DNA from: Methanosarcina barkeri MS
GTDB lineage: Archaea; Halobacteriota; Methanosarcinia; Methanosarcinales; Methanosarcinaceae
Length of the DNA stretch: 64,000 nt
Assembly: GCF_000970025.1 (NCBI RefSeq)
Contig: NZ_CP009528.1
Coordinates: 3,397,168-3,461,167 of the forward strand
Direction: 5' to 3'
Below the pieces are notes generated by a model. The model did no database searches. It was not told the DNA's origin and saw only the letters and a list, made by a program, of their open reading frames with translations. Positions 51,612 through 58,509 of this stretch are shown here, one piece after another (within the stretch, counting starts at the first letter, position 1; each line of letters begins with the position of its first letter). The translations under genes and the position numbers were made by a program.

Positions 51612-52661
51612 TTAGTACTCTACATGATCTGTTTCTTTTATCTTTTCCCTGAACAGGGTATATGCCCATAGCTGATAGATGATGATTATGGGCACGAATA
51701 CCAATGCTGCTCCTAGCATGACGCTCAGAGTCATGTGGCTTGATGCAGCCTCAAAGATGTCTATTCCATATTCAGAAGAAACTGAGGACTTAAGCATGTA
51801 AGGATAGATACTTGCAAGCCCGCTTTCAACAACGAAAAGAAACGCCAGGAGATTGCTGCAAAAGGCAGGGAATATCTTGTCCTTTTTTGCAAAAAACACA
51901 GCAAGAACAGCTGTCACTACCGCAAGAACTGGCAATAAGTACAGAGCTGGCATGGCTGAATAGTTGGTTGTAAAACCTTCTATACCCATAAAGGAATATG
52001 CCAGATAGACCAGAGCAAGTACGAGTACGATAAGAGTACTTTTCTTTGCCAGATCACCTGCTTTTGCAGCTATGGCTCCTTCAGTTTTGACATTGATCCA
52101 GAGCGCACCTGAAGTAACACTCATAAGCACGAATAAGACACCGCCTATCAATGCATATGGGCTGAAGAGTCCAATAAGGGTACCTATATAAACACCTCCT
52201 GAAGCAATTTCGAGCCCCTTGAAGAAGTTCGCAAATGCAACTCCCAGGACCAGAGAAATCAGCAGGCTTCCAGCAAACCATCCCCACATAAGGATTTTTT
52301 GTATTTGGGGATTCTCATCCTTGTGAAGATATTCTATGGAAATTCCCCTTGCAATTAAGCCGATAAGCAGCAACATCATGGGAAGATACAGGAAAGTAAA
52401 CATCTTCGAGAATACCAGAGGGAATGCAGCAAATGTTCCACCTGCAGCCAGGATAAGCCATACCTCATTGCCACCCCAGAAAGGACCAACAGAACTCTGG
52501 ATTTGCATCCTCTGGGCCTTATCTGTGGCAATAAAAGGTACCAGAAGGCCTGCTCCGAGGGAAAAAGAGTCAACAATAAAGTAAACTCCCCATATTACAC
52601 ACCACAGGAAGAACCAGATAATAGCAAGCATATCATGAGTAAGAAAATCGAACATATTCAC
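51612..52661 (-). CDS. cydB: Cytochrome bd oxidase subunit II
   Basis: The 349-aa protein has about nine membrane segments. It shows CydB features: WCVIWGVYFIVDSFSLGAG near the start, then GPFWGGNEVWLILAAGGTFAAFP (conserved Trp/Glu region, quoted in part). It stabilises the oxidase with CydA. Its start overlaps the cydA stop by 4 bp. Confidence 0.93.
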   Translation of the reverse strand: MNMFDFLTHDMLAIIWFFLWCVIWGVYFIVDSFSLGAGLLVPFIATDKAQRMQIQSSVGPFWGGNEVWLILAAGGTFAAFPLVFSKMFTFLYLPMMLLLIGLIARGISIEYLHKDENPQIQKILMWGWFAGSLLISLVLGVAFANFFKGLEIASGGVYIGTLIGLFSPYALIGGVLFVLMSVTSGALWINVKTEGAIAAKAGDLAKKSTLIVLVLALVYLAYSFMGIEGFTTNYSAMPALYLLPVLAVVTAVLAVFFAKKDKIFPAFCSNLLAFLFVVESGLASIYPYMLKSSVSSEYGIDIFEAASSHMTLSVMLGAALVFVPIIIIYQLWAYTLFREKIKETDHVEY

Positions 52662-53974
52662 TCAACTCCTGTCGCATTGACCACGGTTTTCTTTATGAGG
52701 TATACCTCAAAGATAAGCAGGACCATATAAAATGTGCTTATAAGGCTAATACTTAACAAGACGTCTGATGTGGGAACCGATGATACACCATTAGCTGTCT
52801 TTAGCAAACCATAGACCATCCATGGCTGCCTTCCTACCTCAGCTACAATCCAGCCAGCAGTAATAGTAATATATGGAAGAGGAATAGACCATATTAGTAG
52901 CTTTAGATATTTTTTGGATGTGTATAGCTTGCCTGATTTTTGAAGATATAAGCCTAAAAGAGCCACTATGATGAACAGGGAACCCAGAATTGTCATCAAC
53001 CTGAAGCTCCAGAATATCATTTCTACAGGCGGTAATTCACCCTGAGGTAGCTGGTTAAGTCCTGTTATCGTTCCGCTAAAACTTCCTGTATACAGGAAAC
53101 TTGCAAGACCTGGAATTCCCAGCAGCTGAATACTATTGGAGCCTGTGCTTGAATCGGGTACCTGTATTAGATACATAGGCACTGAAGAGCCTGTTTCCCA
53201 TATCGCATCCATTGCCGCTCCTTTTGTAGGTTGAAGCGCAGCAACATATTGTGCATAACCGTGACCAAGAACTGGAAGCATGACTGCAGTAGCGAGTGCT
53301 ATGATAACTGCTATGCTAAAAGATTTTTTAAACACTTCATTGTTATTCCCTTTAAGGAAATGATACGCACAGATTCCCATTATCACGAATGAGGTCAACA
53401 GGTAAGCTGCAAGCAGAGTGTGTATCAGCATGTACCAAACATAGCCGTTCGTAATTAGAGCAATGAAATCTGTCATAACCACCTTGCTCCCGTCAGCAAC
53501 CATCTCATAGCCTACGGGATGCTGCATAAACCCGTTAGCAGTGATAATCCATAATGAAGATATGTTAGTACCTAGAGCGACCATCCACATGGAAAATGCC
53601 TTTAATTTCTGACGGTTATGGCCCAAGAATATCCATGCTCCAAGGAAAGTCCCTTCAAGGAAGAAAGCAAATAACGCTTCCATAGCTAAAGGTGGTCCAA
53701 AGACATCTCCCATGAATTCTGCATAGGCACCCCAGTTAGTACCTAACTGAAAAGTCAGTGTAATACCTGATACTAGACCTATTGCAAAGTTTATCTTGAA
53801 TATATTACCCCAGAAGTCAGCCATTTTTCGCCATGTTTCATCTTTGTTCCTGTAGTACATTGTTTCCATGACTGCCACTAATAATGCTAATCCCAAAGTT
53901 AGTGGAACAAATATGAAATGGAACGCAGCTGTTATGGCAAACTGAAGCCGACTTAATAAAAGCAATTCAATCAT
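52658..53974 (-). CDS. cydA: Cytochrome bd oxidase subunit I
   Basis: The 438-aa protein is the short-Q-loop form. Visible are the N-terminal LSRLQFAITAAFHFIFVPLT with the haem b595-ligand His, NFAIGLVSGITLTFQLGTNW, the proton-channel glutamates in MEALFAFFLEGTFLGAWIF, NGFMQHPVGYE, and EVGRQPWMVYGLL near the C-terminus. It reduces O2 to water at a quinol-type site; in a methanogen the likely role is oxygen removal, perhaps with methanophenazine. It lies downstream of a ferritin-like remnant and a Fur-type regulator. Confidence 0.94.
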   Translation of the reverse strand: MIELLLLSRLQFAITAAFHFIFVPLTLGLALLVAVMETMYYRNKDETWRKMADFWGNIFKINFAIGLVSGITLTFQLGTNWGAYAEFMGDVFGPPLAMEALFAFFLEGTFLGAWIFLGHNRQKLKAFSMWMVALGTNISSLWIITANGFMQHPVGYEMVADGSKVVMTDFIALITNGYVWYMLIHTLLAAYLLTSFVIMGICAYHFLKGNNNEVFKKSFSIAVIIALATAVMLPVLGHGYAQYVAALQPTKGAAMDAIWETGSSVPMYLIQVPDSSTGSNSIQLLGIPGLASFLYTGSFSGTITGLNQLPQGELPPVEMIFWSFRLMTILGSLFIIVALLGLYLQKSGKLYTSKKYLKLLIWSIPLPYITITAGWIVAEVGRQPWMVYGLLKTANGVSSVPTSDVLLSISLISTFYMVLLIFEVYLIKKTVVNATGVE

Positions 53975-54025
53975 TTATTACCCCTCGTTTTCCCTCGTTT
54001 TGTTACTTACTGCAAAGGATTATAT

Positions 54026-54133
54026 TTACGCTTGAAGCAAACCGATGTCTTCCATCCACGGCTTGCAGATATCATTTTCATGTTCAATCTCATCAGTGAG
54101 AACCTGAAGCAAAATGCTATATGTCACCGGATT
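54026..54133 (-). pseudogene. C-terminal remnant of a DPS-like/ferritin-like protein
   Basis: The minus strand between fur and cydA encodes NPVTYSILLQVLTDEIEHEN and then DICKPWMEDIGLLQA with a stop. ILTDE-EHE is the metal-binding C-terminal helix of archaeal DPS-like ferritins. No start is present and the frame breaks near 54150, so only a fragment remains. Confidence 0.6.
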
Positions 54134-54229
54134 TATATCTATGATCAGAATCTATATCTTTGACTATCTGAAGAATATACTATTGTACACCCGGATAACA
54201 TACTGTTTCCCCTTGATGTTCTGCTCAAG

Positions 54230-54757
54230 TTATGTTTCCTCAGACTCCTCAGACTCCTCAGACTCCTCAGACTCCTCAGACTCCTCAGACTCCTCAGATT
54301 CCTCAGACTCCTCAGATTCCTTAGACCCCTCAGATTCCTTAGGCTCCTCAGATTCCTTAGATTCCTTACATTTCTTACATACACCATAGAAGTTAGTGCT
54401 CGTTGAAACAATAGTAAATCCTTCAATTTCCTCAGCTATCTTCATCGAATAATCCAACAATTGTTCCGAATTGAAATCCTCCATCCTTCCACATTCCCGG
54501 CAGATAAGATGGTGATGTGGAATGAAATTTGCTTCAAATCTTGAGACTCCTTTTACATTCACCTCCTCCAGTAAACCTTTCTCCGTAAGGAATTTGAGAT
54601 TTTTATATACGGTAGCCTTGCTTATACGCGTCAGTTTTTTTCTAACCCCATCATAAACTTCGTCTACAGTGGGATGACCATCATGGTCGCGCAAGAAAGC
54701 AAGTATTTCGACTCTCTGGTTTGTGTATTTCATGTCAGCTTTCTCTGTGGGCTTCAT
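54230..54757 (-). CDS. Fur/PerR-family regulator with Ser-Glu repeat tail
   Basis: The 175-aa protein has a winged-helix domain (NQRVEILAFLRDH, SKATVYKNLKFLTEKGLLEE), the metal-binding HHHLICRECGR and a second cysteine pair CKKC near residue 125. The normal protein would end around residue 128. Beyond it lies a tail of about 48 residues, mostly Glu-Ser-Glu triplets, coded by a 9-bp tandem repeat. It is divergent from nothing and reads toward cydAB, so it probably controls the oxidase and the former ferritin in response to peroxide or iron. Confidence 0.85.
   Translation of the reverse strand: MKPTEKADMKYTNQRVEILAFLRDHDGHPTVDEVYDGVRKKLTRISKATVYKNLKFLTEKGLLEEVNVKGVSRFEANFIPHHHLICRECGRMEDFNSEQLLDYSMKIAEEIEGFTIVSTSTNFYGVCKKCKESKESEEPKESEGSKESEESEESEESEESEESEESEESEESEET
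54234..54366. repeat. 9-bp tandem repeat inside the fur 3' end
   Basis: CAGACTCCT recurs about seven times perfectly and then with single changes (CAGATTCCT, TAGACCCCT). It keeps the frame because the unit is 9 bp. Copy number should vary between strains. Confidence 0.9.
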
Positions 54758-54819
54758 TACCGTCCACCTAAATTACCTGTGAAAGCAGGTTTACTTAGAT
54801 ATACAGGATATCTATTACT

Positions 54820-54868
54820 AAATGATATTTATTATTATTTAACAATTACTATCATTTTATATAGTTTT
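54820..54868 (-). promoter_or_regulatory. Fur promoter with candidate operator
   Basis: The minus strand reads AAAAAACTATATAAAATGATAG: a TATA box joined to TATCATTT/AAATGATA, an 8-bp inverted repeat with a 22-nt AT-rich spacer. Its place at and after the TATA box would suit an autoregulatory Fur/PerR-type site. The rest of 54758-55072 shows no gene. Confidence 0.4.
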
Positions 54869-55072
54869 TTATTCAGAGAAGCCTCGTAACTGCTTTCTTT
54901 TCCTAGTACCGTAGTTTGCAGTTTTCCCCACTAAAAGTACAGCTAAAGAACAGTAATTTTGGATAGAACCTGCCAGAGCAAGATTGTACGCTATTTCAAT
55001 AAAATATACAGTTTCCTGCAACCTTATTTTGAATTTAATAGGATTCGTTAACTAATAAACTTCTGAACCAAC

Positions 55073-56320
55073 CTACACCCCTGTACTATATCTAAGGATT
55101 GCGGCAATTCCTCCAAAAGCTATCATAAGTTGAGAGCCTTCGTCGAAATCCGTTGATACAAAAGCAGTCCTTGCATTGCCTTTATCAGCGAGTTCTGAAA
55201 GTTCACCAACGATATCAGTAGCATCCGTGACTTCAAGTGCAGAACCACATTCAGGACAATTTCCAGCCGCAGGAACAGCTTCATTGGACTTCCATTTTCT
55301 TGTTCTTTTATTTTCATATCCGCAAACACTGCATTTGAGAGTTACTCTTTCAGATCGCAGGTCTTCAGAAAGTAAAAGCACATCAACTGCCTTTAGTTCA
55401 AGATTTGCCCGTACATGGTCTTCTCCATAGGAGACTTTACCAGACTCAGTAGCGAGTTCTTTAAAAAACATTTTCATATCGTTCTTTTGCTTAATTAGAT
55501 CAATACCCTGGAGAGTATCCTCTGCTGCATTTATTAACTCAGAAAAACCTGATTCATCCGTATATCCTGTATCGAACAATCCAAGAACCTTTTTCTGAAG
55601 CTCATAATGTAGGAACCCACTTTCACTGAACTCTTCTTTAGTTGGGGAATGCCCTCCTATAAGAATGCCTTTAAGTTCGGATGGCTCCACTTCAAGAAAT
55701 GTCTCACTTGCAGCATCCCCTATTCTCTTATAAAAATCATGAATAGCAATACGCCTGAGCTGTTCAAAACGATGTGCACTCTGCCCCCCTTTTCTTTGTT
55801 TTCCAGGGACAGTAGAGTGGAGATGCTTAATAACTTCAGTTTGCCTGCCTACAAGCATACCGATAGTTGCTTCTCTTAAATCTAGAAGTATAAGCCCATA
55901 AGTACTGCATTCTCGGAGCATTTCCTCAAGGAGCTCAAGATAAAAAACGGAGTCACAGCGATATATGTAATCTAGAACAGGTTCCGGAGGAATGAGAACT
56001 TCATTTAACATGCCTGTCCTGTTAGCTCCGGTGTTGATAATTCCTGCAAAATAAACTATCCCGTTTTCCGGTATTTTGTTAAGAGATCTTAACTTTGCCA
56101 ACAAAAAATCAAGTGCTCCCTGTACATTATTGCTGGAAAGTTTAGACTTAATACCCGAAGCTTGTTCATGTTCCTCTCTCAAATGAGTTATAACATCTGA
56201 AATCTGTTTATTAGGAGGAATATAAAGTGAAATTAATTCTGTGCTCTTCCCACTTTTATTTTTTAGAATCTCAAGCTTCTTTTTTAATACATATTTTTCA
56301 TATGTACAGTATTCAGCCGT
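55073..56320 (-). CDS. Second archaeal release factor 1 (aRF1 paralogue), start codon apparently ACG
   Basis: Homology with aRF1 begins at 56320: AEYCTYEKYVLKKKLEILKN, TELISLYIPPNKQ, then the known domains. The GGQ motif is intact (GKQRKGGQSAHRF), as is YxCxxxF (YRCDSVF) and a C-terminal zinc site (CSVCGYE, CPECG). NIKS is changed to GIKS. From the ACG at 56320 the length is 415 aa, the family norm, and GGGGGA lies 7 nt before it, so ACG most likely replaced ATG. Upstream in frame is ATG-AGA-TAG (56341-56333), and downstream no ATG/GTG/TTG occurs until TTG at 56182, which would lose about 46 residues. It may be barely expressed, use ACG, or be a fresh pseudogene. Confidence 0.8.
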   Translation of the reverse strand, partial: TAEYCTYEKYVLKKKLEILKNKSGKSTELISLYIPPNKQISDVITHLREEHEQASGIKSKLSSNNVQGALDFLLAKLRSLNKIPENGIVYFAGIINTGANRTGMLNEVLIPPEPVLDYIYRCDSVFYLELLEEMLRECSTYGLILLDLREATIGMLVGRQTEVIKHLHSTVPGKQRKGGQSAHRFEQLRRIAIHDFYKRIGDAASETFLEVEPSELKGILIGGHSPTKEEFSESGFLHYELQKKVLGLFDTGYTDESGFSELINAAEDTLQGIDLIKQKNDMKMFFKELATESGKVSYGEDHVRANLELKAVDVLLLSEDLRSERVTLKCSVCGYENKRTRKWKSNEAVPAAGNCPECGSALEVTDATDIVGELSELADKGNARTAFVSTDFDEGSQLMIAFGGIAAILRYSTGV

Positions 56321-56336
56321 TTCAACTTCCCCCTAT

Positions 56337-56430
56337 CTCATAAAAATGCAACTCAGTTGTTATGGTAAAATAAAGTCGACTTAATGGTTGAAGATCTCAA
56401 AAAGCAATTCAACCATTCGTTATACCTTGT
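56337..56430 (-). pseudogene. Decayed copy of the cydA 5' end
   Basis: The minus strand ATGGTTGAATTGCTTTTT...TTAAGTCGACTT.ATTTTACCATAACAACTG matches the first 60 bp of cydA (ATGATTGAATTGCTTTTATTAAGTCGGCTTCAGTTTGCCATAACAGCTG) in pieces, with a 14-bp insertion. AACAAGGTATAACG before it resembles the cydA ribosome-binding region. It ends where the aRF1 gene begins. Confidence 0.55.
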
Positions 56431-57133
56431 TTTTTATTTGTATCAGGCAATTATGGAAAGAACAGGGTTCATGGGCATTATATGTCCATGAACCGTTGCA
56501 CGCGATCAATATTTGCACCGAAGCGAGTTGAGATCTTCCATCACAGCCTCACTTTCTGGTGCCCGTTTTTGCTGATCCATCCGTTTTTTCTTGGTGGCAT
56601 AAATCCATTCGCTTTAATCCATTCGTTTTAATATTCTCTTATTCGTGGGGTTACAACCTACAATTATTCCTAAACTTATTTAAAATAAATTATATGAAAA
56701 ATTGGTTCTGAACAAATAATATTTCCAGGTCAAATGTTTTGTTAGCAAACAACATTTAAATATTAATTATGATTTCAAATTTTTTCAGATACTCGGTTGA
56801 AGATCTCATATTCCACAGTACTGATTTTCAAATCAAATATTGTCTGATAGCGTTTTTAAGCAGATTCAAGTAATTTGGACTTTTAATAGCACTTAGAACC
56901 TATCCAAAAAGTATTGTGACTTACTTTGTGACTTATTTTGTTACTTACTTTGCGACTTACTTTATATTTACAGCTAGCAGTTTCATACTCAGATTGGTAT
57001 TGGGTATTACAGACCGATAGTAACTTTACTATATGCATTGACTTTCGGATAGGCTCATAATCATCTTCATTTTCGACTCTGTCGATTTACTTATGTCCTT
57101 TTGGTCACTGTCTCTTTAGCCAACACAATAAAT
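56431..57133. other. Spacer with hairpin and coding-like fragment
   Basis: GGTTCATGG-GCATTATATGT-CCATGAACC (56466-56494) is a perfect 9-bp stem. On the minus strand around 56500-56575 a short frame reads MDQQKRAPESEAVMEDL and, after a one-base shift, GANIDRVQRFMDI, which suggests a decayed small protein. GACTTACTTTGTGACTTACT-type repeats lie at 56918-56970. No intact gene. Confidence 0.4.
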
Positions 57134-58066
57134 TTATTGAACAACAGCGTAGACGAACGACTTCAGGCTATCAACTATTCTATTTTTATTTATTCCTTGA
57201 AAATAGGCTTTTTTACAATCTTCAATGGTTACATTGCATACCTGTGTAAATCCACGCTGTGTAAGGAATGCATCAACTGTTCCTTCCTTGATACCGAACT
57301 TAAACGGTTCTCCCAGCTGTGACATTTGATTCCGAATATTTCTCCCCGCCTCAAGTTTAGAACTTCCATCAACTGCAGATTGGGGAAAATAATCAAAAAG
57401 AATGCTACTGTTCTTTCCTGAGTTCTTTACAATAAAGGATAGGATTTCATCTACCACCTTTGGCTGAAGATACATTAAGAGCCCTTCCATCAGGAAAAGA
57501 GTCTTAACGTGCCGGATATATCCCACGTTTATCAACCTTTGACCAAAGTCTTCAGTTTCTAAATTGCAAGGGACATAGACAACATGACCTGGCAAACTGC
57601 CAAAGATCGTTCTTATTTTTTCCATTTTTACATTTTGTGTAGCAGGATGGTCTACCTCAAAAGTTTTGATCTTCTCCAGTCCTTCGATCCGATAAGCACG
57701 TGAATCATATCCTGCACCTAATATAACCAGTTGCTCAATACCTTCATCGATTGATTTTTTCACAAAATCATCAAAAAATCTGACTCTAGCAACGATTGAG
57801 TTATTTCTTCCCGGAAAAAATCTGTCCAGTTGCTCCTGCATTATTTTTGCCTCATCTGGATGGTGAACTCCCCACTCCAAAACCTCCGGGTTGATGAAAT
57901 AGACTGCATATGGGTCATAACAAATTCGTTCGTCTTTGGGCTTCTGCGATTCAAAGTATCTGACAAGTAAAACGCCCATGGCTGTCTTGCTGCCTGGTCC
58001 TGTTATTTCCTTAAACATTTTGTTCATATTGTTGAACTCTTTCTCTGTATTCTCAGGTATTTCCAT
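57134..58066 (-). CDS. SAM-dependent methyltransferase, leucine carboxyl methyltransferase-like family
   Basis: The 310-aa protein has the SAM motif VILGAGYDSRAYRI (about residues 117-130), followed by TFEVDHPATQ, VYVPCNLET and FLMEGLLMYL. This set is typical of the LCM/PpmJ family of bacterial and archaeal O-methyltransferases. The substrate is unknown. It is a single gene with 550 bp of spacer upstream. Confidence 0.82.
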   Translation of the reverse strand: MEIPENTEKEFNNMNKMFKEITGPGSKTAMGVLLVRYFESQKPKDERICYDPYAVYFINPEVLEWGVHHPDEAKIMQEQLDRFFPGRNNSIVARVRFFDDFVKKSIDEGIEQLVILGAGYDSRAYRIEGLEKIKTFEVDHPATQNVKMEKIRTIFGSLPGHVVYVPCNLETEDFGQRLINVGYIRHVKTLFLMEGLLMYLQPKVVDEILSFIVKNSGKNSSILFDYFPQSAVDGSSKLEAGRNIRNQMSQLGEPFKFGIKEGTVDAFLTQRGFTQVCNVTIEDCKKAYFQGINKNRIVDSLKSFVYAVVQ

Positions 58067-58509
58067 ACATAAGATTCCCCTTTATTATCTGTTCATTTAA
58101 AGTCAACATTAATCGATTTTTCAAATTAAAAATTTATCTTTTGTTTAGGATTAAATGGTTGTTTGATAAACCAAACAAAATTTAGTAGGGTCAAATCCAA
58201 TTTTAGGAGACAAGGATAGATAATCTACCACTTTTGATAATATTCTCGAGAAAATTCAAAATTGCAAAGTTTTGAAGTAAAAGTTATGTATAATTTCAAC
58301 TAACCAATTTTACGATTTTTAAATTACATTCTGGAATTTATATCGCAGATAAAACTATTATATTAACGATACTAAACAATTCTGAAGATACGTCTAACAA
58401 ACTGGCTGCGCTTACATCAAACATGAAATTGCTTTTGGTTTTATGACAAATAGTTCCATATTCTTCAATGCCTTTTTTGATAATATCTCCGTTTGTAAAA
58501 ATGGATGTT

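Follow-up and report, generated by a model that had tools for sequence, protein, structure and literature searches.

Introduction

Methanosarcina possesses two aRF1s, one of which is active in vitro while the other has no assigned function, as stated in the relevant passages of two reviews (PMC2943090 for M. barkeri; PMC2933860 for M. acetivorans). In the same passages the second aRF1 is reported to have no release activity on any stop codon, and the reviews conflict on whether one or two aRF1s are present in M. barkeri; in the genome analyzed here, both are clearly present. The second homologue of M. acetivorans, M. mazei and M. barkeri (Alkalaeva 2009, via PMC2933860 and PMC2943090) belongs by all appearance to the same paralogue family as the gene treated in this study, which is referred to as aRF1-2. 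An ACG start, a lineage-specific loss of NIKS and Arg68, and domain-wise selection are not described in these review passages.

Lys63 of the NIKS motif reads the first U of the stop codon, and only the exchange Lys63Arg retains efficiency; Arg68 holds the loop, and both residues are required for reading of the first base (PMC5681627). NIK has been reported as universal outside the ciliates (PMC2613156). The eRF1-2 paralogues of ciliates likewise represent a second eRF1 with an altered NIKS motif and intact GGQ and YxCxxxF motifs (PMC2613156), but the ciliates have reassigned stop codons, whereas the aRF1-2 proteins do not share a new motif state. A possible analogy is provided by the ArfB/YaeJ-type and other auxiliary RF rescue hydrolases, which carry GGQ and act without stop-codon reading (PMC6514570). 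These are, however, unrelated or distant proteins, and aRF1-2 still has an N domain.

Neither review assigns a role to the second aRF1 of Methanosarcina, and domain-wise selection leads to a concrete hypothesis, namely hydrolysis of peptidyl-tRNA without stop reading.

Identification of aRF1-2

The stretch of DNA analyzed here (the window) comprises 64,000 nucleotides of the genome of M. barkeri MS. The coding sequence of aRF1-2 occupies positions 55073 to 56320 of the minus strand (415 codons from an ACG, stop codon TAG) and was assigned by family matches and purifying selection. Its product is a full-length aRF1 (NCBIfam TIGR03676, 568 bits at a cut-off of 234.7), and the three domains of eRF1 (Pfam eRF1_1, eRF1_2 and eRF1_3) all score above their cut-offs. 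By sequence, the protein clearly matches solved aRF1/eRF1 structures (4af1, E 4e-109). An AlphaFold model (mean pLDDT 80, pTM 0.58) shows an eRF1-like layout only.

The canonical aRF1 of the same genome (G000:C2:4493798-4495036) has an ATG start and NIKS. In the phylogenetic tree, the aRF1-2 copies form one clade (bootstrap 100) separate from canonical aRF1. Both share the three eRF1 domains, GGQ, YxCxxxF, the AFGGIAAILRY tail and the full length of the family (TIGR03676). In comparison to canonical aRF1, aRF1-2 has a degenerate NIKS/Arg68 region and a far less constrained N domain, fixed changes near GGQ (T168H, Q186E, L190R/H), ACG or GTG starts in some species, and a frequent UAG stop.

Start region

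A sequence-only reading of this locus had described a second aRF1 that had lost its standard start codon, which was borne out. The frame is open between the TAG at 56335-56333 and its own stop codon at 55075-55073 (minus strand), and the first in-frame ATG, GTG or TTG is a TTG at 56182, which corresponds to codon 47, so that the full length is reached only from the ACG at 56318-56320 (minus strand). This ACG is preceded by the Shine-Dalgarno (SD) sequence GGGGGA (56328-56333, minus strand; GGAGG in most orthologues), which stands 7 nt ahead of it. The TTG was rejected as the true start, since a protein begun there would lack codons 1-46, a segment under constraint in the ACG clade. ACG is the only candidate start at the right place.

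The start regions of the aRF1-2 paralogues were compared, as the sequence-only reading had proposed. Most orthologues have ATG at this site and the DH2 copy has GTG; ACG occurs at the same site in M. barkeri (window), M. vacuolata Z-761, M. spelaei and the genome G003. Since these four species form one clade (UFBoot 95), the ACG cannot be explained as an error of sequencing or as a recent lesion; an assembly slip is likewise ruled out by its presence in the three other genomes. Most simply, a single change from ATG to ACG took place in the common ancestor of the group around M. barkeri, M. vacuolata and M. spelaei, and was then kept.

A purine-rich SD sequence is retained in all aRF1-2 copies. 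The computed pairing to the 16S rRNA tail, which was an assumed sequence whose core CTGGATCACCTCC occurs 3 times in the genome, is -9.0 kcal/mol for the window copy and ranges from -9.0 to -12.2 kcal/mol among the ACG copies, versus -6.4 kcal/mol for the canonical aRF1 of the same genome. The comparison of orthologues and the codon models described below show that ATG was replaced by ACG while a strong SD sequence was kept, and that the protein has been under selection since. As the whole frame is under constraint in the ACG lineage, it appears to be still translated, and translation from ACG is likely. The proposal of an inefficient ACG start thus stands as far as the codon is concerned, which is real and replaces an ancestral ATG, and its use as a weak start is likely. 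A literature search on ACG start codons in archaea yielded nothing relevant. A natural ACG start that has persisted over several speciation events, in methanogens amenable to genetics, would offer a native gene for testing archaeal non-AUG initiation.

Upstream of the leader ATGAG, the ACG clade possesses about 37 nt (window 56343-56380) between this block and the upstream region that are absent from the ATG orthologues; a promoter change at the time when the start codon changed is possible. A 9-bp inverted repeat (ATGGTTGAA/TTCAACCAT) upstream of aRF1-2 was dismissed as a candidate element; its 3' arm is absent in M. vacuolata, M. spelaei and G003. A search of positions 54000-58500 against Rfam gave no RNA element at E ≤ 1.

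Selection and occurrence

Values of omega were estimated with a purpose-written codon-model likelihood (branch and domain models). Under the branch model, omega is 0.20 in the ACG clade and 0.25 in the remaining paralogues, and a value of omega = 1 for the ACG clade was rejected (2dlnL 122.6). On the terminal branch of the window copy omega is 0.17, and omega = 1 was again rejected (2dlnL 29). Neither the window copy nor any of the 14 full copies contains frameshifts or internal stops, and neutral evolution is rejected by these values. Within the ACG crown, with branch lengths taken over unchanged from the full-length gene, omega is 0.41 for codons 2-46 (omega = 1 rejected at a modest level, 2dlnL 6.9, p about 0.01), 0.06 for the M domain and 0.23 for the C domain. 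Codons 1-135 are free of indels across the 14 aRF1-2 copies, whereas indels abound in the DNA upstream.

The domains differ strongly in comparison to canonical aRF1. Omega of the N domain is about 0.45-0.48 in the paralogues and about 0.042 in canonical aRF1 (about 11-fold), while the M domain (0.10 versus 0.055) and the C domain (0.24 versus 0.069) differ less. Along the stem of the paralogue clade, every domain is constrained much like canonical aRF1 (N domain 0.10), although this branch is saturated and the values are approximate; the relaxation of the N domain therefore came later. The ancestor of aRF1-2 was probably a working release factor.

Of 31 Methanosarcina species genomes, 13 carry aRF1-2 and 18 lack it; copies are also present in named genomes, among them those of M. 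spelaei, DH2 and Ant1, and in several MAGs. M. barkeri Wiesmoor, which is the sister of the window genome in the canonical aRF1 tree, has an intact aRF1-2 with an ATG start some 350 kb from its cydA. At the orthologous locus, the interval between a methyltransferase and Fur-cydAB (L142 8023-8438), it carries a remnant of aRF1-2 with large deletions and frameshifts. Furthermore, a truncated N-terminal piece was detected in genome G022, and the frame is broken in G027, a MAG of 60% completeness. Judged from these genomes, aRF1-2 is dispensable and has repeatedly been lost and moved, yet it is selected where present. Its absence from 18 of the 31 species and the decay at the Wiesmoor locus therefore indicate a small benefit.

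These observations bear on slow decay, in which a redundant gene is being lost and the ACG is one step of this loss. The patchy presence, the remnant in Wiesmoor, the truncated piece in G022, the broken frame in the low-completeness MAG and the relaxed N domain would all fit. The values of omega, which lie far below 1 both since the ACG arose and on the window's own branch, and the constraint on the M domain in the ACG crown speak against it. As Wiesmoor also carries an intact copy with ATG at another place, displacement seems to account for its remnant. We consider slow decay rather unlikely as an account of aRF1-2, and simple decay of the window copy, which the sequence-only reading had left possible, is rejected by the selection on its own branch. 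Frameshifts in a sister strain, which that reading had regarded as the mark of a plain pseudogene, do occur in the Wiesmoor remnant, but they are not applicable to the window copy.

Decoding loop and putative function

The window copy reads GIKS at the NIKS position (codons 56-59, 56144-56155, minus strand), GKQRKGGQS around the GGQ motif (GGQ at codons 178-180, 55781-55789, minus strand) and YRCDSVF for YxCxxxF, which agrees with the earlier description of an altered NIKS beside intact GGQ and YxCxxxF motifs. Residues are numbered here according to the human protein, with an offset of +5 derived from our own alignment with 1dt9. The supporting arginine is also lost in the window copy (R68S). 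Among the paralogues, GGQ is invariant (14/14) and YxCxxxF is kept in 12 of 14, but at least one of N61, K63, S64 and R68 is lost in 13 of the 14 copies, only Ant1 retaining all four. At the same positions, 22 canonical Methanosarcina aRF1s show no loss, save a conservative R68K in two. In M. vacuolata NIKS is preserved beside R68G, DIKS is combined with R68G in M. spelaei and G003, and KIKS, NIKP, NIES, NIIS and NIQP occur in other copies. In this alignment, the exact GIKS is particular to the window lineage, and the loop is eroded throughout the aRF1-2 family. As NIK has been called universal outside the ciliates, these archaeal paralogues are exceptions. Six exchanges are fixed in all 14 paralogues at positions that are invariant in 31 canonical proteins (R76K, T168H, Q186E, P224H, H239Y and L259F), and residue 190, a leucine in canonical aRF1, is arginine in 13 paralogues and histidine in one.

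Taken together, the codon models and the alignment show that the N domain, together with its loop for reading the first U of a stop codon, was relaxed lineage by lineage, while the M domain is strongly and the C domain moderately conserved. aRF1-2 is probably a real, translated, dispensable and weakly expressed paralogue that would act as a peptidyl-tRNA hydrolase without normal stop reading. Translation would initiate at the ACG at a low rate. The protein would still enter the ribosomal A site and hydrolyse peptidyl-tRNA there, although the stop codon is not read in the normal way. It may thereby provide a low-dose rescue or backup release activity, the amount of which would be limited by the weak start. 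We infer codon-independent release from the domain-wise constraint alone; the conserved M domain could alternatively be explained by demands of folding, by binding to a partner or by an inhibitory effect on normal termination. The more specific proposal, that aRF1-2 is a codon-independent archaeal ribosome-rescue hydrolase whose dose is kept low by the ACG start that several species have in common, is put forward tentatively, as a possibility that we do not regard as likely.

Two other functions were considered. aRF1-2 might have an altered specificity and read a subset of the stop codons, for example sparing UAG for the insertion of pyrrolysine. A changed NIKS motif is known from ciliates with a reassigned code (PMC2613156), and the window genome encodes a pyrrolysyl-tRNA synthetase. 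Against this, the motif differs from lineage to lineage (G, D or K at position 61; E, I or Q at 63; P at 64) and has no common new state, Lys63 is absent from 6 of the 14 paralogues, many congeners manage without aRF1-2, and the review passages cited above give no activity on any stop codon. Altered specificity is thus improbable. The altered loop, which makes the product a poor terminator, and the inactivity in vitro reported in those reviews lend no support to the earlier suggestion that an inefficient ACG start or UAG-dependent control would tie termination capacity to its own expression.

It is equally doubtful that aRF1-2 serves as a brake, a non-catalytic competitor of aRF1 that would bind to ribosomes during termination or stalling. 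Constraint on the M and C domains beside a weak decoding domain would be consistent with such a role, as would the location of the paralogue-fixed substitutions, which lie mostly in or beside the M domain (168, 186, 224, 239 and 259). GGQ, however, is kept in every copy, and a non-catalytic competitor would not need it. Hydrolysis of peptidyl-tRNA without normal stop reading is retained as the preferred explanation.

Upstream UAG codon and UAG stop

The triplet run ATG-AGA-TAG noted earlier lies upstream of the ACG and in frame with it (56333-56341, minus strand), but it is incidental, and its frame is not conserved. An ATG-x-TAG frame is present only in the window species and in M. vacuolata. 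In M. spelaei and G003, 22 nt separate the upstream ATG from the start, 1 nt more than in these two species; the ATG is consequently out of frame, and an in-frame TGA occurs. Among the orthologues, the spacer measures 20, 21 or 22 nt. As the ATGAG block is conserved whatever the frame and sits upstream of the SD sequence, it belongs to the leader and is not a start. A UAG-dependent control, with initiation at the ATG at 56341 and passage of the UAG at codon 3 by insertion of pyrrolysine, is therefore highly improbable despite the in-frame run in two species, because M. spelaei and G003 carry the ACG but lack this frame, the spacers vary, the SD sequence lies downstream of the ATG and the DNA before this ATG has none.

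A UAG also terminates the gene (55073-55075, minus strand), and aRF1-2 is the sole ORF of at least 200 amino acids in the window with this stop. In the Methanosarcina loci, UAG was found as stop in 7 of 14 aRF1-2 paralogues, which are not independent copies, in 0 of 22 canonical aRF1s and in 4 of 124 other long ORFs (~3%). The frequent UAG stop is perhaps a sign of low aRF1-2 expression in a UAG-decoding genus.

Genomic neighbourhood

aRF1-2 adjoins a gene of the Fur family and cydAB, encoding cytochrome bd, in 7 of the 13 genomes (window 51612-54757), although the arrangements differ. cydA was detected in 9 of the 13 genomes with aRF1-2 and in 5 of the 18 without it. The Fur-family protein possesses a long C-terminal tail of Ser-Glu-Glu repeats (ESEESEESEE..., window 54230-54320), and its relatives in most genomes align over the first 133-142 residues only.

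With regard to a vehicle for transfer, no relative of aRF1-2 was found among viral contigs. Plasmids were rejected as well, as they carry only distant haloarchaeal aRF1s (about 32% identity). Many haloarchaeal plasmids harbor a second, shorter aRF1-like gene of about 350 codons, the product of which shares about 32% identity with aRF1-2 (H14-H21).
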